A stretch of 50,060 bases of DNA from Haloarcula marismortui ATCC 43049 (GTDB lineage: Archaea; Halobacteriota; Halobacteria; Halobacteriales; Haloarculaceae): assembly GCF_000011085.1 (NCBI RefSeq), contig NC_006392.1, positions 1 through 50,060 on the forward strand, written 5' to 3'. Below the pieces are notes generated by a model, which saw only the letters and a program-made list of their open reading frames with translations, ran no database searches and had not been told where the DNA came from. A program made the position numbers and the translations under genes. The number at the start of each line of letters is the position of its first letter. Position 1 is the stretch's first letter. This document shows positions 29,643 to 50,060 of the stretch, piece after piece.

Positions 29643-29840
29643 CCATCTCTTCATCTTGGGCCTCATCCTCGTCGAAGACGATCCGCTCACGCCGGGCGAA
29701 GCGCTGCTCGATATCGGGCCATCCTCAGTCTTAGGCTTACGAGCTGGCTCACCCACGGCGGCGACCGCGTCGGCGTCGAGCCAGCGGTTCTCGAGTGATC
29801 GGCGACCGTCGACACCGTCGTGAGTGCCACGCCCCGTCAT
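29635..29840 (-). pseudogene. Small gene with probable frameshift
   Basis: Reading from the ATG at 29840 gives MTGRGTHDGVDGRRSLENRW and, by about residue 40, GEPARKPKTED. From there the frame becomes Ser/Pro-rich and unlike a haloarchaeal protein. Another frame then reads WPDIEQRFARRERIVFDEDE and ends acidic (AQDEEMDD) at a stop overlapping the next start. That second frame is closed by a TGA directly upstream, so the two halves look like one protein broken by a 1- or 2-nt indel near 29718-29725. Sequencing error is also possible. Confidence 0.5.
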
Positions 29841-30049
29841 CGTTCGACCACCGCCCGGCGCTCGATGACAACGTCATGCGCGTAGTCACCGCGGCGGTAC
29901 TGGTCGTAGTAGTTCTCGATGGTGGGGAACTCGGTCGTCCACTCGGTGTAGTGTTCAAGATCACCGACCATGTAGCGGAGCCGCCACTGATCGGTTTCTG
30001 TCGACGTTGTCTCGGTCGCAGTACCCGGCGAGGGGTCAGCGCGGGCCAT
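29837..30049 (-). CDS. Hypothetical small protein
   Basis: The 70-aa protein has a disordered N-terminus and an aromatic, charged core (WRLRYMVGDLEHYTEWTTEF, NYYDQYRRGDYAHDVVIERR). It overlaps both neighbours by 1-4 nt within the minus-strand operon. No family is recognised. Confidence 0.6.
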   Translation of the reverse strand: MARADPSPGTATETTSTETDQWRLRYMVGDLEHYTEWTTEFPTIENYYDQYRRGDYAHDVVIERRAVVER

Positions 30050-30348
30050 TAGGCATCCCCTCCTTCGAAGGGGTCGGGACGGCTGCTATCGCGTTCAACT
30101 AGCGCACACTCTGTGAGCGGAACGGTGAACGACAGCAGCTCGTTAGTCCGGCCGATGGCCTGCGCCAGTTGCTGGCGTGTAGCCGTGTCGGGTTCGGACG
30201 CCCGCAACCGCTGGAGTGTTTCTGTTGCGAGGTCGGCCAGCAAGATGCCCGTGACGTGCTCGTCAGTCTGTCGACAGACCAGCAACAGCGGTTCACTGTC
30301 GGTGGTCGTGATGGCGACGATCTCGCCAGCAGTTGGGCGAGTAGTCAT
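30049..30348 (-). CDS. Hypothetical small protein
   Basis: The 99-aa protein reads like a compact alpha/beta domain: GEIVAITTTDSEPLLLVCRQ, HVTGILLADLATETLQRLRA and LSFTVPLTECALVERD. The ATG overlaps the stop of the 730-codon frame upstream (ATGA), and its own stop overlaps the next start. Function is unknown. Confidence 0.65.
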   Translation of the reverse strand: MTTRPTAGEIVAITTTDSEPLLLVCRQTDEHVTGILLADLATETLQRLRASEPDTATRQQLAQAIGRTNELLSFTVPLTECALVERDSSRPDPFEGGDA

Positions 30349-32537
30349 TGGCCGACCTCCGGCTGAGATGGGTGCCCGATGTGTTGCTGGCAGCGTCGTC
30401 CCGACCCGCGGTGTGATAATTGTCGGCCAAAATGACTTTTACAGATTGTGACCAATCGAGCGGATAGGTTCCGAAGTCCAGCTTGCTGGTCAGTACGCCT
30501 TCTCGATGGGCTTGGCCGGACTAGGTTCGGAACCAGTCGGTGCAGGCGACGACGCCGAATGGTGGCCGACGCGCTCGCTACACTGAACGTCCCCCCTGGC
30601 CGGCCACCATTCCGCCGCCGACCGAATACTGTCGTTGCTGTTGGATTTCTTGCTGTGTCTGTGCGACTGTTGGCACATAGCGTGTCCAGCGTGTGTGTTT
30701 GGAGCTGGACAATCTGGAATGTATCCGATGACATAGCGTAAGTGTTTTGTCTGGTGAATGTCTTTCTATACAATGGGTTCTGGTCCCCGCTACGGATCCC
30801 CCTGATAGCCAGTTGCGCTACCGCGAGCTTCGGGTTCAGAACCCGTCGTCGTGGATGACGACTTCGAATGGTGCACACGCCACTTCCCCCCACACACCCA
30901 CTTCCTTCCGGCTGCCCACCATTCTCGTTCCGTGGCTGTCCTTGATGGCGAGACGACAGTCTACGGGACGGCGACATCGCTGATCGCTGCCACCAGGCTC
31001 GAATGTACTGAGTTCTATCACGTTGCTGGCGTGCGATTGTGCGACTATCGGAAGCGTTTTGACTGGGACTCGTCGCATGTCCTGATGGGCTCTGGGTCCC
31101 ACGCAGTATTCCCAAACGACTCAATCGGTCACCCAAGTAGTCCGGGTCCAGAGCCCGTCGCCGATTTCGGCGATCCTGGATGGGTTGCGACACGCCATTT
31201 GCCCATGGCTGTCGCCCATTCTGTTGTCGGATCACCTGCCAGCGGCTTCGAACACGCCCGCCAGCGGCGTCTGCGATTCCATAAAAACTATCAACTACAG
31301 CACTGCTATCAGACGACAGGTTCTGCCCCGCGCTCCATGTTTCCCCGATAGCCGCTTGACGAAGCGAATGTGTTGGGTGCAGGACCTGTCGCCGGGAACG
31401 GCGATGTTGGGTGGTGCGAGGCACGCCGGGGTCTCCCGGCTGCCCACCATTCTGCGGTGCACAGTTCGAGACCCCTGTCGCCGTCAGGCGATGCTGGTCG
31501 GTGTGCTTATTCCGAGAACAATATTGTAGCAAACCGACAGACACCGCGGGGATATCGCAGCCGTTTTTACCAGCACCCGTGTCAGCGGCAGGTGGGTCTT
31601 GGCCCCTGTCCACTCGCGTTGGATGTGTCCATCCCCCTGATTGTAGCAGGGTCGGAGCTCGTTGCCGATCTCGGATGGTGGCTTCCACCCCACTTCCCAC
31701 ACCCCCAGGATACCCACCATTCCGTTGCTGTAGACAGGAAAGTCGTCGCACCCGCTGGTGGCTATCTGCGTGACGGTCACGGTCCAGCGCCGCGTTGGAA
31801 CCTGACTGTCCGAAGAGTCGGGCGGCCAGAAGTGTGTCGCTGTGTCGCAGGGCTGAAATAGAATTATTACTGGGCAGTTCATACGAGAAAAACGGGTTCT
31901 GATTGCCGCCACAGGCTGGGCCACATCGCGGCGTCACTCTGGCCGGGCCGTGTGCGGGGCAAAGAACCCGCTTGTGCCTCTGACATTTGGGTGGCACAGC
32001 AGGTGCCCAGTGCCACCCGGCCTCCGCTTTCCGGCAGCCAAATAAAAACTGCGTGGTATGTTTCTCGGCTTGTCTGCCCGGAACGAACGTCACTGCCGTC
32101 CCTCCCCAGCAACGGGTCGGGGGTAGATCACACGGGCGTGTCTCCGATATTACCACCCATCCTATCGGTTGGTTCAGTCCCAGAAATCGCTTCTCTGGAC
32201 GCTGCTGGATGTGTTCTGCTCCAAAAGTGAATCGTAAATTACATTTGTCATTGCCACTTACACGAGAAGTGCCAGCACAAAGTTGTCCACTTTGTCCTGG
32301 ATACTTGTCAGAGGCACGAGAGCTGGTCCGTCGTCGCGGGCGGCGGCGGACTACCTTCCAACTCGGACTTTGAGGGAGTCCCTGCGAGTAACTGTTTTGT
32401 GTGAGATGTCCGTATATTCCAGTAGGGTACCAGTCGGTCATCACCTGCCCAGTGATTGTGTGCCTCTGACAACACCGACCGACTGGGTCCCCGTCTTTGC
32501 CCGCTGAGCGACGGCGTTGCGTGAGTTGTTGGGGCAT
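30345..32537 (-). CDS. 730-codon Arg/Gln/Gly-rich repeat ORF overlying hairpin modules
   Basis: The frame is open for 730 codons. At this base composition roughly 25 stops would be expected by chance, and it joins both neighbours by overlaps (stop TGA within the next ATGA; ATG on the upstream TAA). This argues for real translation. The product, however, is basic and rich in R, Q, N, G, S and C, quite unlike the acidic neighbours. It contains five or six diverged units of about 75-105 residues recognised by N-G-G-[QRY]-P-[GE] (QQRNGGYPGG, APQNGGQPGD, QQNGRQPWANG, NENGGQPEG, RRRNGGRPGG), each followed by an I-R-x-R...RR-x-L-x-P segment. No known family is recognised. Alternatives: an unusual secreted or nucleic-acid-binding repeat protein, or a reading frame riding on a structured RNA. 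Confidence 0.5.
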   Translation of the reverse strand: MPQQLTQRRRSAGKDGDPVGRCCQRHTITGQVMTDWYPTGIYGHLTQNSYSQGLPQSPSWKVVRRRPRRRTSSRASDKYPGQSGQLCAGTSRVSGNDKCNLRFTFGAEHIQQRPEKRFLGLNQPIGWVVISETRPCDLPPTRCWGGTAVTFVPGRQAEKHTTQFLFGCRKAEAGWHWAPAVPPKCQRHKRVLCPAHGPARVTPRCGPACGGNQNPFFSYELPSNNSISALRHSDTLLAARLFGQSGSNAALDRDRHADSHQRVRRLSCLQQRNGGYPGGVGSGVEATIRDRQRAPTLLQSGGWTHPTRVDRGQDPPAADTGAGKNGCDIPAVSVGLLQYCSRNKHTDQHRLTATGVSNCAPQNGGQPGDPGVPRTTQHRRSRRQVLHPTHSLRQAAIGETWSAGQNLSSDSSAVVDSFYGIADAAGGRVRSRWQVIRQQNGRQPWANGVSQPIQDRRNRRRALDPDYLGDRLSRLGILRGTQSPSGHATSPSQNASDSRTIARQQRDRTQYIRAWWQRSAMSPSRRLSSRHQGQPRNENGGQPEGSGCVGGSGVCTIRSRHPRRRVLNPKLAVAQLAIRGIRSGDQNPLYRKTFTRQNTYAMSSDTFQIVQLQTHTLDTLCANSRTDTARNPTATTVFGRRRNGGRPGGTFSVASASATIRRRRLHRLVPNLVRPSPSRRRTDQQAGLRNLSARLVTICKSHFGRQLSHRGSGRRCQQHIGHPSQPEVGQ
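30467..32018 (+). repeat. Six hairpin-forming modules (covarying stems), candidate structured RNA
   Basis: Modules start at 30467, 30775, 31087, 31318, 31594 and 31893. In each, a long-range stem closes a 67-78-nt loop: GGTTCCGAA/TTCGGAACC, GGGTTCTG/CAGAACCC, GGGCTCTGG/CCAGAGCCC, AGGTTCTGC/GCAGGACCT, GGGTCTTGGCCC/GGGTCGGAGCTC, CGGGTTCT/AGAACCCG. A short GC hairpin follows in most copies (TCGCCG-ATTT-CGGCGA, TCGCCG-GGAA-CGGCGA, GTCGTC...GACGAC). A second long stem comes next (GAATGGTGG.../...CCACCATTC; in the sixth, GGGTGGCA/TGCCACCC). Stem sequences change together between modules, and wobble pairs (module 4 stem 1, module 3 stem 2, several in module 5) are G-U only if the plus strand is transcribed. 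That strand is antisense to the 730-codon frame. Confidence 0.7.
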
Positions 32538-32851
32538 TACTGCGCACCTCCAGTGACGGGTCGAGGCAGTTCACACAGGCCGGCGAGTGTTTCGGCCTGT
32601 CGGTAGAGCGTGTCTTGGCCGGCGTCAGTCAGCGTATACACGTTGGTGCGGGCGTCGAGCTCGTCGCGGCTGACGAGGCCACTGTCGACGAGCTGGTCGA
32701 GATTCTGGTAGAGACGGCTGTGGTTGATCGGGCCGGCGTAGCGCTCGTCGAGGTAGTCCTTGAGCGCGAGGCCATACGGATCGTCCTCAACGGCGGCAAT
32801 GGCCTCCAGGAGATCGCGCTGGAAACCGGTGAGGTCGTGGTAGGTCGTCAT
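32537..32851 (-). CDS. PadR-like winged-helix protein
   Basis: The 104-aa protein matches the PadR/PhiH1-like fold: LTGFQRDLLEAIAAVEDDPY, HSRLYQNLDQLVDSGLVSRD, then NVYTLTDAGQDTLYRQAETL. The stop overlaps the ATG of the 730-codon frame and its start overlaps the upstream gene (ATGA). As one of two wHTH genes opening the operon it is likely an autoregulator. Confidence 0.75.
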   Translation of the reverse strand: MTTYHDLTGFQRDLLEAIAAVEDDPYGLALKDYLDERYAGPINHSRLYQNLDQLVDSGLVSRDELDARTNVYTLTDAGQDTLYRQAETLAGLCELPRPVTGGAQ

Positions 32852-33528
32852 CGGTCGCCTCCCGGCTCGTCGGCGTCGGTGTCGACCCGCCGCAGCGTCG
32901 CTGGCTCGGGCTGGTAGCAGTCACCTTGCACCAGTAGATCCAGTAAGGCTGTCAGCGCCCGCTTGGCCCCGTACTCCCGGGCGAGCGTGTCCAGTACGTT
33001 GCCGGCAGACGCGCCGTGGCTGTCTTCGCTGGTGGCGATTACATCGAGCGCGTGGCTGCGGATTGCGGGCTCGGCGTGGGTCTCGACAACGAAGCCGTCC
33101 GTGTTCCGGAGGTACGTACTGACGGCGGCCAGCCGTTCGAGTTCGTCGTCGGCGAGGGCGGGTTCGGCGGCCTGCAGGACGGTGTCGAGTCGGGTGGCCG
33201 CCGCTGTGTGCGAGGGGATGGTGGTGCCGCCGTCGGTGACGACCAGATCGTGGCCGGTGACGATAGCCAGTGACCGGGCGGCCTGGGTGATGGCGTCCTG
33301 GCCGCGGTCAGTCAGGGCGTAGGTCCCGTCGGTGGTGGTGACCAGCTCGTCGCCTTCGAGCTCGGCGAGGGCGTCCGTGACGCGGGCGTCGTCGAGGGTG
33401 GCTTCGCGTCGGGTTTCGACGGCGATCTGGAGGGCGTCGGCGGTGGCCGCGCGGTCGTAGTGGTCGTGGTCGGCAATCGCTTTCAGGAGGTCCCGCTGGA
33501 GGGCGGTGCAGGTGTGCCAGGCGGTCAT
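32848..33528 (-). CDS. Winged-helix protein, first gene of minus-strand operon
   Basis: The 226-aa protein opens with MTAWHTCTALQRDLLKAIAD, like its 104-aa neighbour. A winged helix follows (DARVTDALAELEGDELVTTT, TYALTDRGQDAITQ), then a helical C-terminal domain with acidic stretches. The ATG at 33528 follows a strong purine-rich ribosome site (GGAGGGAGAGC) and is preferred to a frame extending to 33591. The shared N-terminal sequence indicates the two operon regulators arose by duplication. Confidence 0.75.
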   Translation of the reverse strand: MTAWHTCTALQRDLLKAIADHDHYDRAATADALQIAVETRREATLDDARVTDALAELEGDELVTTTDGTYALTDRGQDAITQAARSLAIVTGHDLVVTDGGTTIPSHTAAATRLDTVLQAAEPALADDELERLAAVSTYLRNTDGFVVETHAEPAIRSHALDVIATSEDSHGASAGNVLDTLAREYGAKRALTALLDLLVQGDCYQPEPATLRRVDTDADEPGGDR

Positions 33529-33751
33529 GCTCTCCCTCCGGCGAGGGGCGTGGTTGGCGAGCGATGCGACTCTTCGTGGGTGGGCTTGCAAACGGTCATG
33601 GGTTCGATGGGACGCTGTGTGCGAGAGTAGGCGTCGCCTATCTCAGACTGTTACACCGGACTGCCAAATAAGTTTCTGCGCATAATCTAATTCATTGGTA
33701 TGTATTTTTAAGCCGGTGATTACTTTGCCAAGACAGTGCCATTGAAGAGCA

Positions 33752-33991
33752 ATGGCTGGTCGTCCGAAGGACGTCTCCGACGACGAAATCCTACAAGAAG
33801 TCGCACTTGCCCCTGGACCAATAGTGACTGCGCCGGAACTAGCAGACCGGCTAGACATGTCTGGAACGGGTGTAAACAAGCGCTTGGATCAGTTGGTCGA
33901 CGATGGGTACCTTCATGAGCGCCAGGTGGGTGCAAATGCTATTGTCTACTGGCTCACTGACGAAGGTCGCGTTCGGGTAGCAGAAGCTTAG
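33752..33991 (+). CDS. Small winged-helix protein
   Basis: The 79-aa protein MAGRPKDVSDDEILQEVALA has a complete winged helix (VTAPELADRLDMSGTGVNKR, LDQLVDDGYLHERQVGANAI). It is tail-to-tail with a related 70-aa gene, their ends overlapping by 4 bp. It is probably a DNA-binding regulator. Confidence 0.7.
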   Translation: MAGRPKDVSDDEILQEVALAPGPIVTAPELADRLDMSGTGVNKRLDQLVDDGYLHERQVGANAIVYWLTDEGRVRVAEA

Positions 33992-34200
33992 CCGGCAACC
34001 CACCAGACCTTTGCACAGGCACCCACGTCTTTTGTTTCCACTTTTTCCTGGTCCCTCATCTCGTGAAGCCTGTCCAGAATCGCACCATTTGATACTCCGA
34101 ACTCGTCTGCTATCTCCTTAGCGGTGCAGAAGGGCCGATCATGCGATTTCATGTAAGAGAGTACTTCTTGATTCGAGAACGTTCTTGGACGAGGGGACAT
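33988..34200 (-). CDS. Small winged-helix protein, paralogue of convergent neighbour
   Basis: The 70-aa protein MSPRPRTFSNQEVLSYMKSH carries KEIADEFGVSNGAILDRLHE and a short wing (VETKDVGACAKVWWVAG). Layout and N-terminal pattern (RP-x-x-x-S-x-x-E-x-L) parallel the 79-aa convergent gene, so the pair may act as competing regulators and their transcripts overlap at the 3' ends. Confidence 0.65.
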   Translation of the reverse strand: MSPRPRTFSNQEVLSYMKSHDRPFCTAKEIADEFGVSNGAILDRLHEMRDQEKVETKDVGACAKVWWVAG

Positions 34201-34352
34201 GTCTTATAACCGTATTTAGTTTCTTCGTATGTAAAAATTTATGTCCGACGAGATACACAGTTTAGAATAGGAACACACGCGCTGCTGGTCGATTTCTCAC
34301 GAAATCGCCCCGGTGCTTGGAACACCGAGGCGCGTGGTTCCGTGGAGAACCA

Positions 34353-34649
34353 ATGGCAACTACGCAATCCAATCCACAAGAACGTACCGCACGCGAACTA
34401 CTCACCCAAGGCCGCCCGCTCTTCCTTGGCGTCGACGGCGAGGATACTGCCCACTACTGGGATAGCTACGAGTTCGCCGTGGCTGTTGTGATGGCTGACG
34501 GTGAGGCAGAGAAGGTTGTGCTCGCCGAGACGCCCTTCGAGACGCTTGCAGAGTGGTGTGAATATACTCGTAGCGAGCGCGGGTGGGATATCGGCCCGCA
34601 CGTCGGTGGGTCGCTCGTCGGCGATCTCGTTCGAGGTGTTGAGGCGTGA
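34353..34649 (+). CDS. Hypothetical protein next to CRISPR leader 1
   Basis: The 98-aa acidic protein MATTQSNPQERTARELLTQG includes FLGVDGEDTAHYWDSYEFAV and VVLAETPFETLAEWCEYTRS. The ATG at 34353 is chosen over the upstream codon at 34317. It overlaps the next gene by 4 bp. No homology is recognised. Confidence 0.6.
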   Translation: MATTQSNPQERTARELLTQGRPLFLGVDGEDTAHYWDSYEFAVAVVMADGEAEKVVLAETPFETLAEWCEYTRSERGWDIGPHVGGSLVGDLVRGVEA

Positions 34650-34897
34650 GCTGCACTGTCGAAGAGCGCAAGCGGGTGCGACGGGCTGCGAGGGCGATTC
34701 AAGAGGAAGTGGCGACTGAGTCCGTGGATGTGCTTGCGCCGAGTGCGAGTCAGTATGGTGAATGGACGCTTGATGCCGTGCTTCGGGATGCTGAGGGTGT
34801 GCCGCCAGAGGTGTTACGTGAGCTGGCGCTGGCTGGGTTGACGCTGCAGCCGACGCCGTCGCAGGCTGAGTTTCAGCACGTGGCAGCGACGGTGTAG
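34646..34897 (+). CDS. Hypothetical small helical protein
   Basis: The 83-aa protein MSCTVEERKRVRRAARAIQE is helical, with YGEWTLDAVLRDAEGVPPEV in the middle. It is coupled to the gene upstream (ATGA) and ends 12 bp before the CRISPR leader 1 inverted repeat. It is not a known Cas protein. Confidence 0.55.
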   Translation: MSCTVEERKRVRRAARAIQEEVATESVDVLAPSASQYGEWTLDAVLRDAEGVPPEVLRELALAGLTLQPTPSQAEFQHVAATV

Positions 34898-35012: not shown

Positions 35013-36696
35013 GTTTCAGACGGACCCTTGGGCGGTTGAAGTCTGTTCGGTGTCTTCGTGGGCGCGTGCGTCGGGATCGGTTTCAGACGGACCCTTGGGC
35101 GGTTGAAGTAAATCCTTCGCCGCACTCTTTGCATAGATGCACTCGTTTCAGACGGACCCTTGGGCGGTTGAAGTGAGGGAGACGCCGACGACCAGGAGGC
35201 TATCCTGCCGTTTCAGACGGACCCTTGGGCGGTTGAAGTCGAGCTCTTGCATGGTCAGAACAGAAAGTCGCGAACGGTTTCAGACGGACCCTTGGGCGGT
35301 TGAAGTGACCCCCGCACTTTCGCAAGGGGCCGCTTAGTGTAAGGTTTCAGACGGACCCTTGGGCGGTTGAAGTTCAGACAGGAGTACCTCGCCGAGTTCC
35401 TCGACGACACGGGTTTCAGACGGACCCTTGGGCGGTTGAAGTCGCGGGTCTGGCTCGATGGCGACGACATCGACATCATGTTTCAGACGGACCCTTGGGC
35501 GGTTGAAGTAGTCGGAATGTGCGTCTTGCTCCCGTCGTCGTTGATGGTTTCAGACGGACCCTTGGGCGGTTGAAGTGGCCAAGACCTCGCGGCGGAACTC
35601 ACACAGTACGTCGTTTCAGACGGACCCTTGGGCGGTTGAAGTGAAGTCCACCGTATCACTGGACCGCGAAGTTCGGAAAGTTTCAGACGGACCCTTGGGC
35701 GGTTGAAGTCGACTGAAAGAGTTGTGCGTGTCGAATCATGAGCGTTTCAGACGGACCCTTGGGCGGTTGAAGTCCCCGCCGGTACTGCGGGGGCTCCAGC
35801 GAGTCGTCTAGTTTCAGACGGACCCTTGGGCGGTTGAAGTCCCCGCCGGTACTGCGGGGGCTCCAGCGAGTCGTCTAGTTTCAGACGGACCCTTGGGCGG
35901 TTGAAGTGGCCCACCGAGTGCTTGTGACCAGCTGCGGCCACCGCGTTTCAGACGGACCCTTGGGCGGTTGAAGTCATGCACGACGGCGACGTGTCGGTGC
36001 TCAACTGCCTGTTTCAGACGGACCCTTGGGCGGTTGAAGTGCCAACACTAGTCACGTCAACAACAGTCCCAAACTGGTTTCAGACGGACCCTTGGGCGGT
36101 TGAAGTCGACTGTCCACGGTATCGTTTATCCGCGCGTCAACGAGTTTCAGACGGACCCTTGGGCGGTTGAAGTGATAGTCACATCAACACTGGTTGTGCC
36201 GTTATTGGTTAGTTTCAGACGGACCCTTGGGCGGTTGAAGTCTGCCGTTGAAGGTCACTCGTATGTCGTCCACCAGAGTTTCAGACGGACCCTTGGGCGG
36301 TTGAAGTCCGGTCGACCTGATTTACAACGTGACTGGCCACGAGGTTTCAGACGGACCCTTGGGCGGTTGAAGTAGCCAAGCCATCAGGGGATCGTCCGCC
36401 GAACCCGTGTTTCAGACGGACCCTTGGGCGGTTGAAGTCCGACGAACGGCCCGATTTGGCCGATCTCCCTGGTTTCAGACGGACCCTTGGGCGGTTGAAG
36501 TATCATCTGGGGGCCGGAAGTGTGGCTGACCGGCGGTTTCAGACGGACCCTTGGGCGGTTGAAGCGACATCCTCGACCACGAAGTCTGGGAGGAAGTCCA
36601 GTTACAGACGGACCCTCGGGTCGTTGAAGCGAGAACGAGGACGGAGACCTCATCCGACTGTTTTGGGTTACAGACGGTCCTTTGAGTGGTTTATCG
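35013..36696 (+). CRISPR. CRISPR array 1, 26 repeats
   Basis: Thirty-nt repeats (start GTTTCAGACGGACCC, end GGGCGGTTGAAGT) recur every 64-68 nt from 35013 to 36565 (24 copies, the last ending in C instead of T), with two decayed copies at 36601 and 36667. The 36601 repeat has the GTTACAG start and GAAGC end of array 2, suggesting the older repeat form. There are 25 spacers of about 34-38 nt. Two adjacent spacers (35774-35810 and 35841-35877) are identical, from a tandem repeat-spacer duplication. Leader-to-trailer direction matches the cas operon that follows. Confidence 0.97.
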
Positions 36697-37301: not shown

Positions 37302-38114
37302 ATGCGGATCCTCGCACGACTCTCTGCACGAACAGACGCCGCCTACGACAATACGTACCACAACAAGCTGCAGGGCCGCATCTGGCAGGCCCTCGAGGAC
37401 AGCAAGTACGACGCCCTCCACGACAAAAACCAGCCAAAACCGTTCGTATACAGCAATCCCTTCCCCCCGCAGGACATGGACGAGGGTGACGAACGAACGC
37501 TCCTGGTTGCCTCGCCCGAGGAATCGCTGCTCGCCCACATCGCCGAGGACCTCACGCACGACCGGGAGCTAAATATCGGCGAGATGCCCTTCCACGTCGA
37601 CAAGGTTTCGCCGCTCGCCCCCGATGTCGGCGAGCCCGGCACCAGCGGCACCATCGAAACTGGGACTGGTCTCCTAGTTCGAATTCCGCCATGGCGCTTC
37701 GACGATTACGGGATGGACGTCAACCACGACCAAGCCGAATTCTGGCGGCCGGAACATACCCTAGAACCGTTTCGGACCCAACTCGAAGCGAACTTGGATA
37801 AGAAGCATCGGCTCTACATGCCTGACTATCTGGCGGGCCCCTCAGATGTTGATGGCGACCTCTTCGACAGCTACGAGCTGATCAAGACTTTCGCCATTCC
37901 CGTGACGCCAACGACTGGTCGGACAGAAGAGTGGGTGCTCAGTAAGTGGCGCTTCGACTACACCGTCCGGGACGACGACCACCGACGGCATCTTAATCTC
38001 GCGCTGGATGTCGGCCTCGGCGAGCGCAACTCGCTGGGCTTCGGGTTCATCAACATCACCGATCAAACGCGCCCTGACGAGACGGAACTGGAGGGGGAGA
38101 ATGCTTTCCCCTGA
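37302..38114 (+). CDS. cas6: Cas6 crRNA-processing endoribonuclease (type I-B)
   Basis: The 270-aa protein cuts pre-crRNA within repeats and leaves the 8-nt 5' handle ending GAAGC or GAAGT. It shows the ferredoxin-like start MRILARLSARTDAAYDNTYH with a catalytic-type His in YHNKLQG. Near the C-terminus it has the Gly-rich loop of Cas6 (DVGLGERNSLGFGF). Size is usual for the family. It is the first cas gene and its end overlaps cas8b by 14 nt, so unlike in some haloarchaea there is no room between cas6 and cas8b for a CreTA module. Confidence 0.92.
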   Translation: MRILARLSARTDAAYDNTYHNKLQGRIWQALEDSKYDALHDKNQPKPFVYSNPFPPQDMDEGDERTLLVASPEESLLAHIAEDLTHDRELNIGEMPFHVDKVSPLAPDVGEPGTSGTIETGTGLLVRIPPWRFDDYGMDVNHDQAEFWRPEHTLEPFRTQLEANLDKKHRLYMPDYLAGPSDVDGDLFDSYELIKTFAIPVTPTTGRTEEWVLSKWRFDYTVRDDDHRRHLNLALDVGLGERNSLGFGFINITDQTRPDETELEGENAFP

Positions 38115-40233
38115 GCAGTTCCGCGAGCGGTACGCGGACACGCTGGCTGATGAACTACCGGACGGCCCGGTCACATCGCTGCGCTCGCTCCAGTATCTCT
38201 ACGGCAAACTGTATACGCTGGCGACAGCAGGCGGTGGCGACTACGCCGCATATCTCACACCCGATGAGGCAGGCGACCTCGTCGATAGCGAAGACAGCCT
38301 CATCGTTGTCCGTGTGGATCTTTCAGGTAATGAACCGCAGCTGGCGACCGACGATCGAGGCCCGGTCTGGGTAACAAAATACACTGACGACCGCGTCGAG
38401 AAGGTAGCTCACTGCAAGTACCCAGCAGCACGCGGTATTGACCATAGCGTCACGCATCAGGCTGGCCGTAACAGTGGTCCCGAGAAGCTTGCCCGCTACG
38501 CGAAGGAGCGGCTAACAAAATGGGCAAAAGACGAGGTTGTGCAGGAGGCAGCAACTGAACACGAGGACGGCTATATCGTCGAAGCACTCGCCGAACTCAG
38601 CGAGGACGAGGCCACCCTGGATGCCATCGAGGAGGCGGTCAAGCGAGAACTGGCCGGCGAGTCGACAACGGCGCTACTCACGGTGCAGGTGAAAGTTGAC
38701 CCAGACGGTGACTACCTCTGGCCTGCAGAGCGTGACGTGTTCCTGGCCGCGATGCGCCGCCGTAAGCTCTCGAAACTGGTCACGAAGAACAAGGCCGACG
38801 ACTCCTCGGGACAGGCCACCGATATCGTCACCGGGGCTTCGACTCGGACCGTCGGAACCTCTGAGGACCCTCAGAACTACTACCTCGGCAAACAACTGGA
38901 GAAATTCCCCGGCCTAGACATCGAGGAGGCGTGGCGAACCCATCCGATCTCCGAAGACGCGGCAGTGACGGTGATGAATGCCGGCACGTTCGTCGAGGCA
39001 TGTACGTACCGCACGTTTGGGACGAAGGTGTATTGTCTTCCGTACGTCTGGGGGACCATCTCAACGTCAGATGCGTTCGACCTATACAAACTACTCTACG
39101 ATGCGACGACAGAAGACGACGGCATGACACCTATCGAACGTCAGTACGAGAACCGGAATACGCTGTTTGGTGACGCCCAACTCCGGTTCTACGTCTCCGC
39201 TGTCATGCCACACCAAATGTCGCGGTACGATGTCTTCGGTGAGACGCTGAACGGCCGGTTGCTCTATCCCAAAGAGCTCGCAACCAAGCACAACCAGTTG
39301 GTGCAGCAGTCAGCCGCGTTCCACTCCGGGGCGGAATGGACACCGCCGATGCCGACACACCCGAACTGGGATCTGCTTGCGGGCAGTGACGAGCAACTCC
39401 ATGCCGTCTCGACGGGGTGGTACTTCGCTCAGACGTTCGCACAGCGCGACGACGACGATGCCGACGCAGATGATCCCCGTATTGAGGCGCTCGTCAGCGT
39501 CCTCAGCGGCGATGCTATTTCGGTCGAAACGCTGCTCGAAGAATATGTTGCACGCATTATAACCGAACAGACCGACGACGACGTCGAAGGCTTCCCGTCG
39601 TTCCGCGTCGCCAGTCAGTTCGCCCAGTTATGTGCACTCGCGACAGACAAACTCGACCTACTGACATCCGACGACGCGGCCAAAGAACCGATCACGCGCG
39701 AACCGACCTACGATACACAGACGATGGAACCACCAACAGACATACTCGCCGCCGACGGCGGCCATCCCGCGGCGGCAAAGCTCGAATCGTTCATCGAAGA
39801 TACGCCGGCACTCGCTCCTGACGAAGACGCACCTCACAACGACCAGCGACGCGGTGCGTTCCTGCTCGGTGCGCTGGTTGGCGAGATCGGGAGCTATCAG
39901 GAGTACGACCAAGACCGGTCTACGACACTTGTTGATCAGTTCCCAGTCAAATCAATCACCAAGTCGCGAATCAAGAAGGTGACACAGGAGACCATCGGCA
40001 AGACGCTCACATACACCCGCCAAGAAAAGAAAGCGGGTCAGAGCTACCCGGGAACAAAGGCCGAGCACGTCGTCGAGCGGCTCCGCGAGACGATCCTCAA
40101 ACCTGATCCCGACGAATGGGATCTCGATACCGACGACCTCCGCTTCTACTATGCGCTGGGGGTCACCTATGGGATGAACGACCATCCGGAGTGGGATAGC
40201 ACGGCAATTGACGACACTGAGGAGGACATCTGA
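38101..40233 (+). CDS. cas8b: Cas8b large subunit of Cascade
   Basis: The 710-aa protein is the large subunit that recognises the PAM and recruits Cas3. The start MLSPEQFRERYADTLADELP at 38101 is preferred to a frame opening at 38008 inside cas6. Haloarchaeal Cas8b proteins are about 700 aa and diverge strongly; identification rests on length, the position between cas6 and cas7, and family-like stretches such as SLRSLQYLYGKLYTLATAGG. No HD or nuclease motif is visible. cas7 starts one base after its stop codon. Confidence 0.85.
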   Translation: MLSPEQFRERYADTLADELPDGPVTSLRSLQYLYGKLYTLATAGGGDYAAYLTPDEAGDLVDSEDSLIVVRVDLSGNEPQLATDDRGPVWVTKYTDDRVEKVAHCKYPAARGIDHSVTHQAGRNSGPEKLARYAKERLTKWAKDEVVQEAATEHEDGYIVEALAELSEDEATLDAIEEAVKRELAGESTTALLTVQVKVDPDGDYLWPAERDVFLAAMRRRKLSKLVTKNKADDSSGQATDIVTGASTRTVGTSEDPQNYYLGKQLEKFPGLDIEEAWRTHPISEDAAVTVMNAGTFVEACTYRTFGTKVYCLPYVWGTISTSDAFDLYKLLYDATTEDDGMTPIERQYENRNTLFGDAQLRFYVSAVMPHQMSRYDVFGETLNGRLLYPKELATKHNQLVQQSAAFHSGAEWTPPMPTHPNWDLLAGSDEQLHAVSTGWYFAQTFAQRDDDDADADDPRIEALVSVLSGDAISVETLLEEYVARIITEQTDDDVEGFPSFRVASQFAQLCALATDKLDLLTSDDAAKEPITREPTYDTQTMEPPTDILAADGGHPAAAKLESFIEDTPALAPDEDAPHNDQRRGAFLLGALVGEIGSYQEYDQDRSTTLVDQFPVKSITKSRIKKVTQETIGKTLTYTRQEKKAGQSYPGTKAEHVVERLRETILKPDPDEWDLDTDDLRFYYALGVTYGMNDHPEWDSTAIDDTEEDI

Positions 40234-40234
40234 T

Positions 40235-41308
40235 ATGACAGACACCACCGACATCGCCCAGCATCGCTCCGAAATCGTCTTTCTGTACGACGCCGTCGAC
40301 GCGAACCCGAATGGCAACCCGCTGAGCAGCGCGAACCGGCCACGCATCGACCCACAGACTCAGCAGGCAATCGTCACTGATGTCCGGTTGAAACGATATC
40401 TCAGGGACCAACTGGACGACGACGGGCACGGAGTCTATATCCGGAACGTCCAAGAGGAGGGTGAGCAGTACACTCGGGCCGACCTGCTCGAAGATCGTCT
40501 CAAATCCGTCGATTACGACAGCTACGACCTCGACGACGACGAGGAAGCTGAACAGTTCCGTGAGGATGTCTTCGGAGAGTACTTACGGAAAAGTGCCGAT
40601 GTCCGGTATTTCGGGGCAACGATGTCCGTCGATACGGATGACGTGTACGCCAAGCATCTCCCGGATCACTTTACCGGGCCGGTTCAGTTCTCGCCCGGCA
40701 AAACGATGCACGCAGTCAATGAAAACGAGGAGTACGACAGTCTGACCAGCGTCATCGCAACTCAAGAAGGTAAAGAGCAGGGAGGATTCGATCTCGACGA
40801 CCACCGTATCCAGTACGGACTCATCCGATTCCACGGATTAGTCGACGAACACGGCGCAGCCGACACAAGACTCACTCAAGAAGACGTCGAACGGCTTGAT
40901 ACACTCTGTTGGCGCGCCATCAAGAATCAGACCATCAGCCGGAGTAAGGTCGGACAGGAACCACGCCTCTACTGCCGCGTGGAGTACGCTGACGAGAGTT
41001 TCCACCTCGGTGGGTTGGACAAGGACCTTCGACTCGACGAGGAAGCGTCGAAGGACGACGAGGATCTCCGGAACGTTCGGGATCTCGCTGTCGAGATTGA
41101 CGACTTCGTCGACCGACTCGACGGAGCGGGTGCTCAAGTCGAACGCATCCGCGTAGTCGCAAGTGACGTGTTGCAATTCACGCATGAGGGTGAGCCGGGC
41201 GGGCCGGAACTGTTATACAACGCGCTCCGGGATGCCGTCGGGGCTGACCGCGTTGAGATCATCGACGTGTACGACGAACACCTCGAGACGCTGCCGGCGG
41301 CGGAGTGA
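40235..41308 (+). CDS. cas7: Cas7 (Csh2-type) Cascade backbone subunit
   Basis: The 357-aa protein forms the Cascade filament along the crRNA. The N-terminus HRSEIVFLYDAVDANPNGNP followed by RPRIDPQTQQAIVTDVRLKR is a hallmark of I-B Cas7 (Csh2). YFGATMSVD and SPGKTMHAVN fit the family core. The ATG at 40235 is chosen; nine upstream in-frame codons lie inside cas8b. The stop overlaps the GTG just before cas5. Confidence 0.95.
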   Translation: MTDTTDIAQHRSEIVFLYDAVDANPNGNPLSSANRPRIDPQTQQAIVTDVRLKRYLRDQLDDDGHGVYIRNVQEEGEQYTRADLLEDRLKSVDYDSYDLDDDEEAEQFREDVFGEYLRKSADVRYFGATMSVDTDDVYAKHLPDHFTGPVQFSPGKTMHAVNENEEYDSLTSVIATQEGKEQGGFDLDDHRIQYGLIRFHGLVDEHGAADTRLTQEDVERLDTLCWRAIKNQTISRSKVGQEPRLYCRVEYADESFHLGGLDKDLRLDEEASKDDEDLRNVRDLAVEIDDFVDRLDGAGAQVERIRVVASDVLQFTHEGEPGGPELLYNALRDAVGADRVEIIDVYDEHLETLPAAE

Positions 41309-41310
41309 CG

Positions 41311-42108
41311 ATGTCGCAGGAATCGCTCGACGAGTGGTCGGAGACGGACTCCGACTGGTCTCCGGAGCGGTGCCTCTCGCTGACAGTCCGTGGACCGTGG
41401 GGGCACTTCCGGCGCGTCGAGGGTAACGTGGTCAAGCAGACGTATCGGGTGATGCCCAGAACGACTGTTGCTGGCCTCATCGCGGCTGTTCTTGGAATCG
41501 AGCGAGATGGCTACTACGATCTGTTCGCGCCCGGCCGATCGGCTATCGCCATCGAACCGGTTCGAGGACTGCGAACGCTCAACATGCCGGTAAATGCTCT
41601 TTCGACCGCAGCGGATAACCTCAAATCCCTCAACAGCCGCGGGAAACTCAGCGTGAAGCTTCCGGACCCGATGGATCTCAGACAGCAGCACAATTACGAA
41701 GTGCTCGTTGACCCGGCGTACCGAATCGACGTTGCGCTCGCCGACAGCGAAACGTACCGAGAGCTTCGGCAGACCCTAGAGGCCGGTCGGTCCCACTACG
41801 TCCCAAGCCTCGGCCTCTCGGAACACCTCGCGAATATATCATTCCACGGCGAGTTTACCATCGAAGAGGGTCCAGATGACACTGTCGTCTCAGTCGACTC
41901 CACACTCCCCAACGCTGTTGACGATGTCGTCCTTGACTCGGATACCCGCTGTGGCATCGAGGAGTCACCGGCATTCATGACGACTGATGCGGGCGGTCGG
42001 ACGACCACAGCATTCACTACATACGCATACAACCCGGATGCAGAACCCCTCAGGGTGCGAAATATGCAACCGTCCCGAGTCGACGGACGGACTGTGGTGT
42101 TCGTCTGA
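41311..42108 (+). CDS. cas5: Cas5 Cascade subunit (type I-B)
   Basis: This 265-aa RAMP protein caps the crRNA 5' handle. It has the Cas5 start SLTVRGPWGHFRRVEGNVVK followed by YRVMPRTTVAGLIAAVLGIE, the typical Cas5 N-terminal pattern. The ATG at 41311 is 2 nt past the cas7 stop; an overlapping GTG (41305) is an alternative. The length is normal. Confidence 0.95.
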   Translation: MSQESLDEWSETDSDWSPERCLSLTVRGPWGHFRRVEGNVVKQTYRVMPRTTVAGLIAAVLGIERDGYYDLFAPGRSAIAIEPVRGLRTLNMPVNALSTAADNLKSLNSRGKLSVKLPDPMDLRQQHNYEVLVDPAYRIDVALADSETYRELRQTLEAGRSHYVPSLGLSEHLANISFHGEFTIEEGPDDTVVSVDSTLPNAVDDVVLDSDTRCGIEESPAFMTTDAGGRTTTAFTTYAYNPDAEPLRVRNMQPSRVDGRTVVFV

Positions 42109-42109
42109 G

Positions 42110-44719
42110 ATGACCACTATCTACTCACATCCGCCGGAGAACGGATCTGAGGGAGTGGTGCTCGATGACCACCTGAATGACGTGGCTGCACGTGTCGAGT
42201 ACGTGGTCCCGCCGGGCGCGCGGACACCCGCCGGGGAACCGCTTCGACCAGTAGTCAAGACGCTCGGGTACGTCCACGACCTCGGGAAGGCGACGACGTT
42301 TTTTCAGGACTACCTTCTCGATGACCGGCAGCCAGACAATGAACTATTGCGCCACCACGCGCCGCTGGGTGCGTTCGCCGCGTACTTCGCACTCGATGCC
42401 CGCGGGTTCGACACCGAGACGTGCCTGGCGGGGTTCGTCGCGGTTGCAAAACACCACGGGAGCCTCCCAGATATCACGGACTACATCCACACCCGAGCAC
42501 ACCGCCGTGAGGGTGTCGAGCCGAGGGAACGGAACTCGGCGGAGCGGCGGCAGAACGCTGTCGCCAAGCAAATAAAGAATATCGACGACAATGCCCGAGA
42601 GCTGGTCAGCACCGTCTTCGAGGCGGCGACCGCCGGTGCAGAGGAGTGGGCGTCGTTTCGTGACGGGTTCGGCGAACTCCTTGATGACATCGCAGACACG
42701 GTTGCCGCGACCGGCACCACCACTGGTATCAATCGAGACGCCCTCTCTTCGTCCTGTTACGGACTCGTTATCCAGTGCTGGGGGTCACTAGTTCTCGCAG
42801 ACAAGACCAGCGCTGCTGGTGCGCGAAACGTCGCTGAGACATACACAGAAGACCAGCCGTCGCTCGACCGCCTCAACGATCATATCGCGGACATTGAGGC
42901 TTCTGTGAGTGCCGACCCCGATGGGAGTCAGTCAGAACGGCTCAACCATTTGCGGTCGATGGCTCGCGAGGACGTTCTCGATAATGCAGCCGACCTCGCC
43001 AAAGCGGGTGGCGGTGTGGCGACGCTGACGCTCCCGACGGGAATGGGAAAGACCCTCACTGGGTTGTCGGCGGCACTGGATATCCGAGATAACCTCGGTG
43101 GCAAGCGGGTTATCTATGCGCTGCCGTTCACGAGCGTTATCGACCAAGTCGTCGACGATGTTTCGGGCATATACGATACCGATGACCATCCGCACCTACT
43201 TACGGCCCACCACCACCTCGCCGACGCCAGCATTGAGGACAACGCCGACGCGGATGAGGCGGACCGCTCAGACGATGTCGCAGGGATGCTCGGCGAGAGT
43301 TGGCGCGCCGGGCTGACCGTGACGACGTTCGTTCAGTTGTTCGAAAGCCTCGCGGGACCCGGAAACCGTCAGTCGATGAAGCTGCCAGCGCTACGGAACA
43401 GTGTTGTCGTGCTGGACGAGCCACAGAGTCTCCCGCTTGACTGGTGGAAGATCGTCCCGCGCCTCGTCAAGATGTTGACCGAGCAGTTCGGGGCGACCGT
43501 CATTGCCATGACAGCGACCCAACCGAAGCTGTTCCCCGAATCACCGGAACTTGTCGAGGGCCCGGAACAGTACTTCGAGGAAGTCTCACGGGTATCGTAC
43601 CACCTCGACGCGTCAACCGACCGCTACATTGAGGCACGGAATGAGGGAGACCCGAAATCTTACCAAGACGCCGCTACGAACCTGTCCGAGCAACTGACAG
43701 CGGGTACCTCAGCACTAGCAGTCTGTAACACCATCGACAGCGCTCGGCATCTCACCGAGAGGCTTGTCGAGAACGCCCCAGACGCGGTCGATGTCGCCGA
43801 GCAGTACGACGATGTACTCCGCAAGAAGGAACTTACCACCGGTGAGGATGTCGCGAAAAGAGTACAATCTGTCGGCGACCGCGCCATCCTTCATCTTTCC
43901 ACGCGGCTGCGGCCGGCTGATCGGTTGACCCTCGTTGACGCCGCAAAAGAACTTACAGAGGCTGGACACCCGGTCGCCGTCGTCTCGACACAGCTCATCG
44001 AAGCAGGCGTCGACATCAGCTTTGATCGTGTGTACCGGGACCTGGCACCCATCGACAGCGTCGTGCAGGCTGCCGGACGTTGCAACCGCTCGTTCGAGCG
44101 TGACCGTGGCCACGTCACCGTCTGGTGGCTAGCAGCACCGCCCGACGTCGAAAAGACGCCTGCAGAAGCCGTCTACAATCGTGGCACGTCGTTGCTCCCT
44201 GTTGCTGCCGACACCTTGGCGTCGGTTCGCTCCGACGACGGCGAACTGACGGAACGAGCGGTTGCTAGGGACGCCGTCGAACGGTATTATGACCGGCTCC
44301 ACGACGACAAGTGCGTCGGGAAACAGGCCTACGCCGACTACGTCGATAACGCACGGGCCGACAAACTTTCAGACCTATCGCTCATCGACCAACGGCCATC
44401 CGTCGATGTAGTGATTTGCCGGACAGATGCAGACCACGAAATCGTTGAATCAGTACGAAACGCCGCCAATGCATACGATTTCGATGCATTCAGTGATGCG
44501 ATCGACGAGACGAAGTCGCTCCGTATCTCTGTGCCGGTGTATCCCGGCGATGACGAGACGAAAGAAGCACTCAACAGCCTCGTCCCGCTGGTCAAGAACG
44601 AACGATTCAATCGGGCAACTGGCGTCCGCGTGCTCGACGTCCGCCGATTCGAGAACCATTTCGATCAACGAACGGGGTTCATCGTTCCCGATAGCACCGT
44701 AGCACATCAGTTCATATGA
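42110..44719 (+). CDS. cas3: Cas3 HD-nuclease/helicase
   Basis: The 869-aa effector unwinds and degrades targets marked by Cascade. The N-terminal HD domain shows YVHDLGKATTFFQDYL (His56-Asp57), LRHHAPLGAFAAYF and KHHGSLPD. The helicase has TLPTGMGKTLTGL (Walker A, about residue 311), VLDEPQSLPLDWW (DExx-box variant DEPQ), MTATQPKL (motif III), and STQLIEAGVDISFD with QAAGRCNR (motifs V and VI). HD and helicase are fused, as in most type I systems. The start at 42110 is one base beyond the cas5 stop, and the end overlaps cas4 by 4 bp. Confidence 0.96.
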   Translation: MTTIYSHPPENGSEGVVLDDHLNDVAARVEYVVPPGARTPAGEPLRPVVKTLGYVHDLGKATTFFQDYLLDDRQPDNELLRHHAPLGAFAAYFALDARGFDTETCLAGFVAVAKHHGSLPDITDYIHTRAHRREGVEPRERNSAERRQNAVAKQIKNIDDNARELVSTVFEAATAGAEEWASFRDGFGELLDDIADTVAATGTTTGINRDALSSSCYGLVIQCWGSLVLADKTSAAGARNVAETYTEDQPSLDRLNDHIADIEASVSADPDGSQSERLNHLRSMAREDVLDNAADLAKAGGGVATLTLPTGMGKTLTGLSAALDIRDNLGGKRVIYALPFTSVIDQVVDDVSGIYDTDDHPHLLTAHHHLADASIEDNADADEADRSDDVAGMLGESWRAGLTVTTFVQLFESLAGPGNRQSMKLPALRNSVVVLDEPQSLPLDWWKIVPRLVKMLTEQFGATVIAMTATQPKLFPESPELVEGPEQYFEEVSRVSYHLDASTDRYIEARNEGDPKSYQDAATNLSEQLTAGTSALAVCNTIDSARHLTERLVENAPDAVDVAEQYDDVLRKKELTTGEDVAKRVQSVGDRAILHLSTRLRPADRLTLVDAAKELTEAGHPVAVVSTQLIEAGVDISFDRVYRDLAPIDSVVQAAGRCNRSFERDRGHVTVWWLAAPPDVEKTPAEAVYNRGTSLLPVAADTLASVRSDDGELTERAVARDAVERYYDRLHDDKCVGKQAYADYVDNARADKLSDLSLIDQRPSVDVVICRTDADHEIVESVRNAANAYDFDAFSDAIDETKSLRISVPVYPGDDETKEALNSLVPLVKNERFNRATGVRVLDVRRFENHFDQRTGFIVPDSTVAHQFI

Positions 44720-45288
44720 CTGAATCGAGGACAGACAATAGTGAGGATCCAGTTGAGAAACTGCTCCGTTCAGCTCGTGATGAGGCCGTCAACGACCCAT
44801 TTCACGTTACCGGCGTGATGATGCAGTACTATGAGGTCTGTGAACGGGAGCTCTGGTTCGCCTCGCGGCATCTCGAAATCGACCGAGACAACACTGCAGT
44901 CGTCCGCGGTACACAGGTCGACGAGAGTGCATACGACGACAAGCGTCGTAACGTATCCATCGACGGAACCATCGCTATCGATGTCTTGGACGACGGCCGA
45001 GTGATGGAGGTGAAGCCCTCCTCATCACTCATCAAACCAGCAAAACTCCAGTTACTCTATTATCTTTGGTATCTTGATCAGGTCGTCGGCGTCGAACGGG
45101 AGGGCGTACTTGCCCATCCGACGGAGCGCAAACGCGAGACTGTGGCACTCACCGATGAGAACACCAGGTGGGTCGAAGAGGCAATCCGCGGCATCTACGA
45201 CGTCACCACCAGTGACTCGCCACCGCCTGCGGAAGAAAAGCCGTTCTGTGAATCCTGTGCATACCACGACTTTTGTTGGAGTTGTTAG
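44716..45288 (+). CDS. cas4: Cas4 adaptation nuclease
   Basis: This 190-aa RecB-like nuclease trims prespacers and defines their PAM side. It has a cysteine in YYEVCERELWFASRHLE, the catalytic GTQVDE, then TIAIDVLDDGRVMEVKPSSS (D...E-x-K) and three C-terminal cysteines (CESCAYHDFCWSC) that with the first hold a 4Fe-4S cluster. It is coupled to cas3 by ATGA overlap. cas1 starts three bases after the stop. Confidence 0.95.
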   Translation: MTESRTDNSEDPVEKLLRSARDEAVNDPFHVTGVMMQYYEVCERELWFASRHLEIDRDNTAVVRGTQVDESAYDDKRRNVSIDGTIAIDVLDDGRVMEVKPSSSLIKPAKLQLLYYLWYLDQVVGVEREGVLAHPTERKRETVALTDENTRWVEEAIRGIYDVTTSDSPPPAEEKPFCESCAYHDFCWSC

Positions 45289-45290
45289 TC

Positions 45291-46283
45291 ATGAACGATA
45301 ACTATCACGTATTCACCGACGGCCGTCTTGAACGACACAACGACACGATCCGCCTCGTCACTGAGGACGGCGAAAAAAAGTACCTGCCAATCGAGAACGC
45401 CGAAGCGCTGTTCTTACACGGGCAGATTGACTATAATACTCGGCTCGTCTCGTTTCTCAACGACGTCGGCGTTGCGATACACGTCTTTGGCTGGAATGAC
45501 TACTACGCAGGTTCGATCATGCCTGAGCGGGGGCAGACATCTGGACAGACGCTGGTCGAACAAGTCAGAGCTTATGACGATTCGACCCGGCGACGTGCCA
45601 TCGCCCGTCAGTTCATCGAGGGAAGCATCCACAACATGCGAGCGAACGTCAAGTACTACGACGACCGTGGTTACGATTTCGATGCCATCATCGACCGTTT
45701 AGAAGCCCAAGCTGAATCGCTCTCCGACGAGATGGATACAAACGAGTTGATGGGGGTTGAGGCAACTGCTAGAAAGGCGTACTACTCAATCTTCGACGAT
45801 GTACTCCCAGATGGGTTCGATTTCGGCGGTCGGCAATACAACCCGCCAGACAATGAAGTAAACAGTCTAATCTCGTTCGGTAACTCATTAGTCTACGCCA
45901 ACGTCGTTTCGGCAATCCGAGCGACCGCGCTTGACCCCGCTGTGAGCTTTCTTCACGAACCCGGCGAGCGGCGGTACTCGCTCGCTCTCGACATCGCAGA
46001 TCTGTTCAAGCCACTCTTGGCCGACCGAATCATCTTTCGCGTCGTCAACCGCAATCAGCTACAACTCGACGATTTCGAGTCGGATCTCAACGGCTGTCTA
46101 CTCAACGAAAACGGACGGAAAACCTTCTCAAAAGCGTTCGAAGAAAGCCTAGAGCAGACCGTTGATCATCCGAGATTGAACAGGAAGGTGAGCTACCAGT
46201 ACTTGCTCCGAGTCGAGGTGTACAAACTAAAAAAGCACCTGCTCACTGGTGAGGAGTATGTCCCGTTCAAGCGGTGGTGGTAA
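45291..46283 (+). CDS. cas1: Cas1 integrase (type I-B)
   Basis: The 330-aa integrase joins new spacers to the array. The N-terminal beta domain contains RLVTEDGEKKYLPIENAEAL and FLHGQIDYNTRLVSFLNDVG. The catalytic helical domain has the expected Glu, His and Asp region (LISFGNSLVYANVVSAIRAT, VSFLHEPGERRYSLALDIAD). The ATG at 45291 is selected. Its C-terminus ends 2 bp before cas2. Confidence 0.96.
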   Translation: MNDNYHVFTDGRLERHNDTIRLVTEDGEKKYLPIENAEALFLHGQIDYNTRLVSFLNDVGVAIHVFGWNDYYAGSIMPERGQTSGQTLVEQVRAYDDSTRRRAIARQFIEGSIHNMRANVKYYDDRGYDFDAIIDRLEAQAESLSDEMDTNELMGVEATARKAYYSIFDDVLPDGFDFGGRQYNPPDNEVNSLISFGNSLVYANVVSAIRATALDPAVSFLHEPGERRYSLALDIADLFKPLLADRIIFRVVNRNQLQLDDFESDLNGCLLNENGRKTFSKAFEESLEQTVDHPRLNRKVSYQYLLRVEVYKLKKHLLTGEEYVPFKRWW

Positions 46284-49600: not shown

Positions 49601-50060
49601 GTGGTCCGCCAGTTTGGACGGGTGTTACAGACGGACCCTCGTGGGGTTGAAGCTGGACGAGCGCCCAGCCGTCCTTGTTGCTACGGAATAGTTACAGACG
49701 GACCCTCGTGGGGTTGAAGCGAATTTGTTGACGACCCACGGGAGACCGACGATGCGTTACAGACGGACCCTCGTGGGGTTGAAGCCACTTGCTCAATCAG
49801 GGACTGCGTTGGTATGGCCTGTTACAGACGGACCCTCGTGGGGTTGAAGCAGCACATAGTCGATGCTCGGGTCGTGCCAGTGGCCGGTTACAGACGGACC
49901 CTCGTGGGGTTGAAGCGTCGCCGACGACGACCCGTTCGTCCTTCCCGAAAGCGTTACAGACGGACCCTCGTGGGGTTGAAGCACCGCTATAACAATGAAC
50001 ATCCAATACTACGTTAGTTACAGACGGACCCTCGTGGGGTTGAAGCCGATAATACTGTGA
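46654..50060 (+). CRISPR. CRISPR array 2, leader-proximal part (52 repeats, continues at base 1)
   Basis: Fifty-two near-perfect 30-nt repeats (start GTTACAGACGGACCC, end GTGGGGTTGAAGC) run from 46654 to 50046 at 64-68-nt intervals, with 51 complete spacers. The last 14 nt (50047-50060) begin a spacer that resumes at 1011 after the IS. Across the circular junction the array totals 57 repeats and 56 spacers, larger than array 1. The repeat differs from array 1 at five positions (4, 17, 19, 21 and 30). The spacer at 49257-49292 recurs at 1062-1097. Confidence 0.97.

Follow-up and report, generated by a model that had tools for sequence, protein, structure and literature searches.

In Haloarcula marismortui ATCC 43049, the space between the gene of a PadR-like regulator and a 99-codon gene (here called the slot) is filled by a minus-strand open frame of 730 codons. 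This frame probably acts as a translational relay, which would carry ribosomes past a row of small RNA genes on the opposite strand. The window, that is the whole stretch of DNA that was analysed, consists of 50,060 nt of contig NC_006392.1, and all coordinates refer to it. The pattern of substitutions suggests that the frame is selected for readability and not for content, an option that the initial annotation of this DNA did not list. The slot belongs to a cassette at 29837-34897, which comprises genes for proteins of 70 and 99 aa, the slot, the PadR-like gene, and divergent genes for proteins of 98 and 83 aa. The genes and signals of this region are as follows:

29837..30049, minus strand: 70-codon gene, the next cassette member, located by tblastn with the L003 homologue and by the annotation of L001
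30049..30348, minus strand: 99-codon gene, whose start overlaps the relay stop (ATGA)
30345..32537, minus strand: relay frame, a 730-codon open reading frame filling the slot, stop-free and in phase, with no amino-acid constraint
30355..30360, minus strand: Shine-Dalgarno motif GGAGGT ahead of the 99-codon gene, where the relay frame ends
32537..32851, minus strand: gene of a PadR-like winged-helix regulator (Pfam PF03551, 3e-13), whose stop overlaps the relay start (TAATG)
32545..32551, minus strand: Shine-Dalgarno motif GGAGGTG within the end of the PadR gene, preceding the relay start codon
32848..33591, minus strand: another regulator-like gene, the most upstream of the operon, with no confident family
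34353..34649, plus strand: 98-codon gene, a divergent cassette member
34646..34897, plus strand: 83-codon gene, a divergent cassette member

The data showed that the minus-strand frame contains no stop codon, while each of the other five frames of the region contains 13-25. Dinucleotide shuffles of the slot had 19.6 stops on average, with a minimum of 10, and the comparison with shuffles and with the other frames rules out a chance open frame. The initial annotation had judged the frame to be far beyond chance and coupled by overlaps to the genes on both sides, and both judgements are borne out, the latter by the TAATG shared with the stop of the PadR-like gene and the ATGA shared with the start of the 99-codon gene. 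The predicted product is rich in arginine and glutamine, with 15.3% lysine plus arginine and 5.7% aspartate plus glutamate, and the GC content at third codon positions (GC3) is 0.54. The neighbouring and other plasmid genes, in contrast, are acidic in composition and have GC3 values of 0.63-0.84, which agrees with the earlier description of a basic product unlike the rest of the plasmid. The best Pfam match of this product was below threshold (17.3 bits, with a cut-off of 28.3), and hence no recognisable protein family was found there. The closest plasmid records are from Haloarcula, among which pHsi55 of H. sinaiiensis is 97.9% identical over the whole slot; the public plasmid annotation has nothing annotated in the slot.

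The cassette recurs on many Haloarcula replicons, with several per genome, and a gene for a 293-aa coiled-coil protein is often close to it. A search with the 99-aa protein found 39 places in 20 of the 146 genomes of the family (Haloarculaceae), and most of these have a PadR-like gene upstream in the same orientation. An AlphaFold2 model of the 99-aa protein had a mean pLDDT of 80, and a Foldseek comparison of this model with the PDB gave nothing below an E value of 0.36; a weak resemblance to small-barrel (KOW) folds was set aside. The cassette proteins had no convincing match in a library of defence systems. Elsewhere in the window there are three CRISPR repeat arrays (Rfam CRISPR-DR24; 1032-1324, 35013-36565 and 46654-50046), and the frames at 37302-46283 form a putative cas gene cluster, as judged from their order and sequence.

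The distance from the PadR-like gene to the 99-codon gene ranges from -4 nt, where the two genes overlap directly through ATGA in the slot-free cassettes L064, L065 and L067, to 2188 nt in the window, so that the frame between them has from 0 to 730 codons. No stop occurs in the phase linked to the 99-codon gene in the slots of the window (L001), L003, L005, L006, L037, L039, L043, L049, L050, L052-L056, L059, L060 and L069, for which dinucleotide shuffles predict 4-20 stops each, and the slots of L148 and L149 agree with an open linked frame. These intact slots form 14 groups at 85% identity, which partly share ancestry and are not all independent. The phase from the PadR stop to the 99-codon start is preserved in them, their frames end in ATGA, and in the main clade they start at a TAATG, ATGA or GTGA junction. 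A clear Shine-Dalgarno motif is present ahead of the 99-codon start in nearly all slots and ahead of the relay start in most. Other slots are broken, either by insertion sequences (L002 and L045) or otherwise (L047/L048, L051, L057, L068 and L071). Relative to the window, the slot DNA left in L002 has acquired an in-frame stop and four small indels (1-2 nt each), which fits a relaxation of selection once the frame is broken. The 99-codon gene is recognisable and without interior stop in all broken-slot cassettes, which suggests that the coupling may not be essential everywhere, or that the breaks are recent.

Some slots hold other contents. The L043 slot has no stop in the linked frame, yet it does not match the RNA model described below; a TTTTATTA box is followed there by GGGTCCTG...CAGGACCC, and a TGTCAGAGGCA segment is also present, so that this slot may hold a distant form of these RNAs. 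The slots of L069, L070 and L071, which are from other species, carry different inserts with one conserved stretch, in which a tRNA T-arm-like CCCGGTTCGATTCCGGG lies inside a GCCCGCG/CGCGGGC stem; ARAGORN called no tRNA in this stretch.

The DNA of the slot in the window also encodes structured elements on the plus strand, which are arranged as follows:

30467..30615, plus strand: RNA module A, with three stems, found with the covariance model; a promoter-like TATA lies near 30437-30443
30775..30927, plus strand: RNA module B, found with the covariance model
31087..31224, plus strand: RNA module C, found with the covariance model
31318..31455, plus strand: RNA module D, found with the covariance model
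31594..31725, plus strand: RNA module E, found with the covariance model
31894..32021, plus strand: RNA module F, a variant read by eye, which retains the first stem, has another stem in place of the third and carries GTGCCTCTGACA
32270..32493, plus strand: second structured RNA element, adjoining PadR, with a conserved hairpin, a covarying hairpin and a 13-bp long-range helix TTGTCAGAGGCAC/GTGCCTCTGACA

The modules are about 140 nt long and have three covarying stems: P1 (GGGTTCTGG...CCAGAACCC), P2 (GTCGTCG...CGACGAC) and P3 (AATGGTG...CACCATT, with a C-rich loop). The modules noted in the initial annotation are confirmed: the covariance model, which was built from nine modules, recovers five full copies, and besides these there are the variant F and the different element near 32270-32493. 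A homologous variant of module F in H. hispanica (L004:5517-5650) scored 30.9 bits with the model. The 13-bp complementarity between TTGTCAGAGGCAC and GTGCCTCTGACA in the second element is invariant, and this element is also present in L003, L005, L059, L060 and L148. Because GTGCCTCTGACA is common to the second element and module F, pairing between different RNAs is possible. The C-rich P3 loop is conserved (ACUCCCCCC in many copies), and Shine-Dalgarno regions or other G-rich sites are possible pairing partners for it.

Of 32 Haloarcula genomes, 19 contained matches to the covariance model, about 140 in total with a few weak ones among them, and a search of 243 genomes of the order yielded a single weak match beyond this genus. 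The majority of copies are located away from the cassette, either alone or in rows of two to four, and several of these sites are shared in synteny by different genomes (groups of 13 and 12 loci), which indicates that the RNA is an established genomic gene family. One syntenic site carries two to four copies in about a dozen genomes (L004, L111, L113, L121-L125, L130, L135 and L136); on pHH400 of H. hispanica it is flanked by an alpha/beta hydrolase gene and an ABC transporter substrate-binding gene. In the 78 distinct non-slot copies, 94.3% of pair cells were paired and 22 of the 29 pairs changed on both sides, in an alignment that was fitted to the model and is therefore biased in favour of pairing; none of 500 shuffles reached these values. 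Among the pair cells, G:U pairs (450) were in excess over A:C mismatches (83), which argues that the structure belongs to the plus strand. Both the covariation of the stems and the strand preference had been noted in the initial annotation, and they hold well beyond the shuffle controls and in the counts of wobble pairs, respectively. The 107 upstream sequences share a BRE-like CACAA at -38 to -33 and a T-rich TATA box at -29 to -26 before P1, which is the position expected of an archaeal promoter, and each RNA thus has its own predicted promoter. The RNAs may be expressed as discrete transcripts. Rfam gave no match at E<=1 in 30300-32600, and at the gathering threshold it identified only the CRISPR repeats in the window, outside the slot. 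The open-access papers searched gave no description of such an RNA family in Haloarcula.

The copies outside the slot served as a control for the openness of the frame. In the slot copies the antisense stops were distributed over the three phases as 39, 22 and 1, while 67 distinct non-slot copies, including a few spurious matches, had 52, 47 and 51. Similarly, the RNA length left one common remainder modulo 3 in 26 of the 28 copies in intact slots, while outside the slot the remainders were divided as 16/25/21. Since non-slot copies have stops in all phases and any length remainder, the open frame is a property of the slot, and an open frame imposed by the RNA itself is ruled out. The same data bear on the idea that the frame is a mechanical by-product, with modules that happen to be stop-free in one antisense phase and were kept so by tandem duplication. 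All five modules of the window are indeed in the same phase. However, this idea leaves unexplained why the non-slot copies have stops equally in all phases, why their lengths take every remainder, and why the spacers, which make up about half of the slot, are open as well; it is refuted by the non-slot stop counts and lengths, and we give it almost no chance of being correct.

The selection acting on the slot was assessed from substitutions in homologous slot pairs that were 2-37% apart. In the pooled slots the rates at codon positions 1, 2 and 3 were uniform (0.139/0.155/0.147), whereas an excess at third positions was observed in the same pairs for the PadR-like gene (0.088/0.095/0.254) and for the 99-codon gene (0.145/0.105/0.271). 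Random placement of the observed substitutions predicted about 0.7-9 stops per slot pair, and none was seen in the nine pairs. Nearly all gaps between intact slots are divisible by three, the exceptions being one pair with gaps of 22 and 2 (sum 24) and alignment-end effects. The uniform rates, together with the absence of family matches, led us to reject the novel repeat protein family that the initial annotation had offered as one reading; the apparent repeats of the protein come from the antisense reading of the RNA copies. Its other reading, a new structured RNA overlapping a coding frame, stands for the RNA, with plus-strand modules that have no Rfam match at E<=1, and is not supported for the protein, on account of the uniform rates. 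It had also been proposed that frequent stops in homologues would refute coding; this test had the opposite outcome, with homologues of the same slot being open as well and RNA copies outside it not.

A functional basic protein under low sequence constraint, for example a disordered RNA-binding chain selected for charge and length class, would fit the arginine-rich product with few acidic residues, as well as the real translation signals at the start of the frame. We nevertheless regard it as improbable, given that the length varies from 0 to 730 codons between cassettes and that substitutions show no codon-position bias even in slots that have diverged by about 37%. Moreover, an antisense reading of conserved RNA structures accounts for the composition, and the frame is without the acidic shift or the GC3 bias typical of the neighbouring genes. 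In the preferred reading, the relay frame would be translated and its peptide would be unimportant.

The proposed relay would operate within an operon read on the minus strand in the order regulator, PadR-like protein, relay frame, 99-aa protein and 70-aa protein, with the antisense row of RNA genes and their predicted archaeal promoters placed between the PadR-like and 99-codon genes. Ribosomes ending the PadR-like gene would restart at once on the relay frame through the stop/start overlap and the Shine-Dalgarno motif, traverse the slot to its end, and begin again on the 99-codon gene at the second overlap junction, which likewise has a Shine-Dalgarno motif. Stops and frame-shifting indels would be purged from the antisense strand, amino acids would be ignored by selection, and RNA genes between the pair would persist only while the antisense frame stays open. 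Strict coupling of this kind has been described in Haloferax volcanii: when the upstream gene carried a premature stop, translation of the downstream gene was lost in 9 of 9 overlapping pairs, and Shine-Dalgarno motifs did not attract ribosomes de novo (Huber et al. 2019, PMC6728339). In haloarchaea, reinitiation nearly disappears with gaps of about 20 nt (Huber et al. 2023, PMC10666635). Because such coupling needs upstream ribosomes, an RNA insert would silence the 99-codon gene unless a continuous frame overlapped both ends, and a continuous frame with overlaps at both ends was found in the intact slots.

Alternatively, the frame could be open because ribosomes shield a long message from premature termination or decay. 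This explanation likewise predicts openness without amino-acid constraint. However, long untranslated parts of messages were reported to be stable in H. volcanii (PMC6728339), and shielding does not by itself need exact overlaps and Shine-Dalgarno motifs at both ends, which makes it a rather unlikely explanation. In a third arrangement, the plus-strand RNAs would pair with the relay message and block ribosomes, so that the relay frame would be the regulatory target of an antisense-controlled gate. Each of the RNAs shows perfect complementarity to the relay message, and a separate promoter is predicted for each. A published precedent (Blomberg et al. 1992) comes from plasmid R1, in which the CopA RNA reportedly controls repA by way of the tap leader frame. 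On the other hand, the RNAs occur more widely than the slot and stand alone at syntenic sites without such an operon opposite, which suggests that their general function may lie elsewhere. We consider the gate a possibility somewhat on the doubtful side; it is compatible with the relay explanation and adds to it, as a further layer in which the antisense RNAs may tune relay translation.

Coupling, antisense RNAs and leader frames are already known. The tap frame has about 24 codons and one antisense RNA and is bacterial, and leader frames with antisense RNA are also present in IncI/IncB-type plasmids. The R1 system would resemble the slot in having a plasmid frame, beside a protein gene, that needs to be translated, with antisense RNA on the opposite strand; it differs in that the slot has up to 730 codons and about seven RNA elements, is archaeal, and holds an RNA family that also occurs elsewhere in the genome. 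Rickettsia palindromic elements are inserted in frame into protein genes, with the host protein conserved around the insert. They are likewise structured repeats tolerated within an open frame, but no protein is conserved in the slot, its elements come with promoters, and their RNA is on the opposite strand. The CreT small RNA toxins are also small RNA genes of Haloarcula, but CreTA is tied to CRISPR-cas loci and a CRISPR-like antitoxin (PMC8501985). With haloarchaeal termination-reinitiation the slot shares overlaps of the ATGA and TAATG type, Shine-Dalgarno motifs at the junctions, and a downstream gene expected to depend on upstream translation (PMC6728339, PMC10666635), but its middle cistron is antisense to RNA genes and without conservation at the protein level. 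Unlike in ordinary coupled genes, the only conserved property of the relay frame is that it is open and in phase. The open-access papers searched contain no kilobase-scale cistron that hosts several antisense RNA genes and in which openness and phase alone are conserved, which is weak evidence of absence.

The recurrence of the arrangement in many replicons and the occurrence of the RNA family elsewhere both go beyond what the initial annotation could see. The frame has a very strong coding signature, with no stops, indels in threes and start and stop signals, yet it has no signature at the protein level. It separates selection for openness from selection for protein, which are normally taken as one, and it gives a warning that an open frame with frame-preserving indels need not imply a functional protein. 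As a tentative suggestion, the slot RNAs and their copies elsewhere might control relay translation and in this way set the output of a plasmid-borne regulatory cassette, in which case a kilobase-long cistron kept for openness only, leading ribosomes through a growing array of antisense RNA genes, would represent a new genome organisation. For Haloarcula, the analysis brings to light a widespread family of structured RNAs that Rfam does not contain, and through the proposed relay the strict translational coupling of archaea would become visible in evolution.
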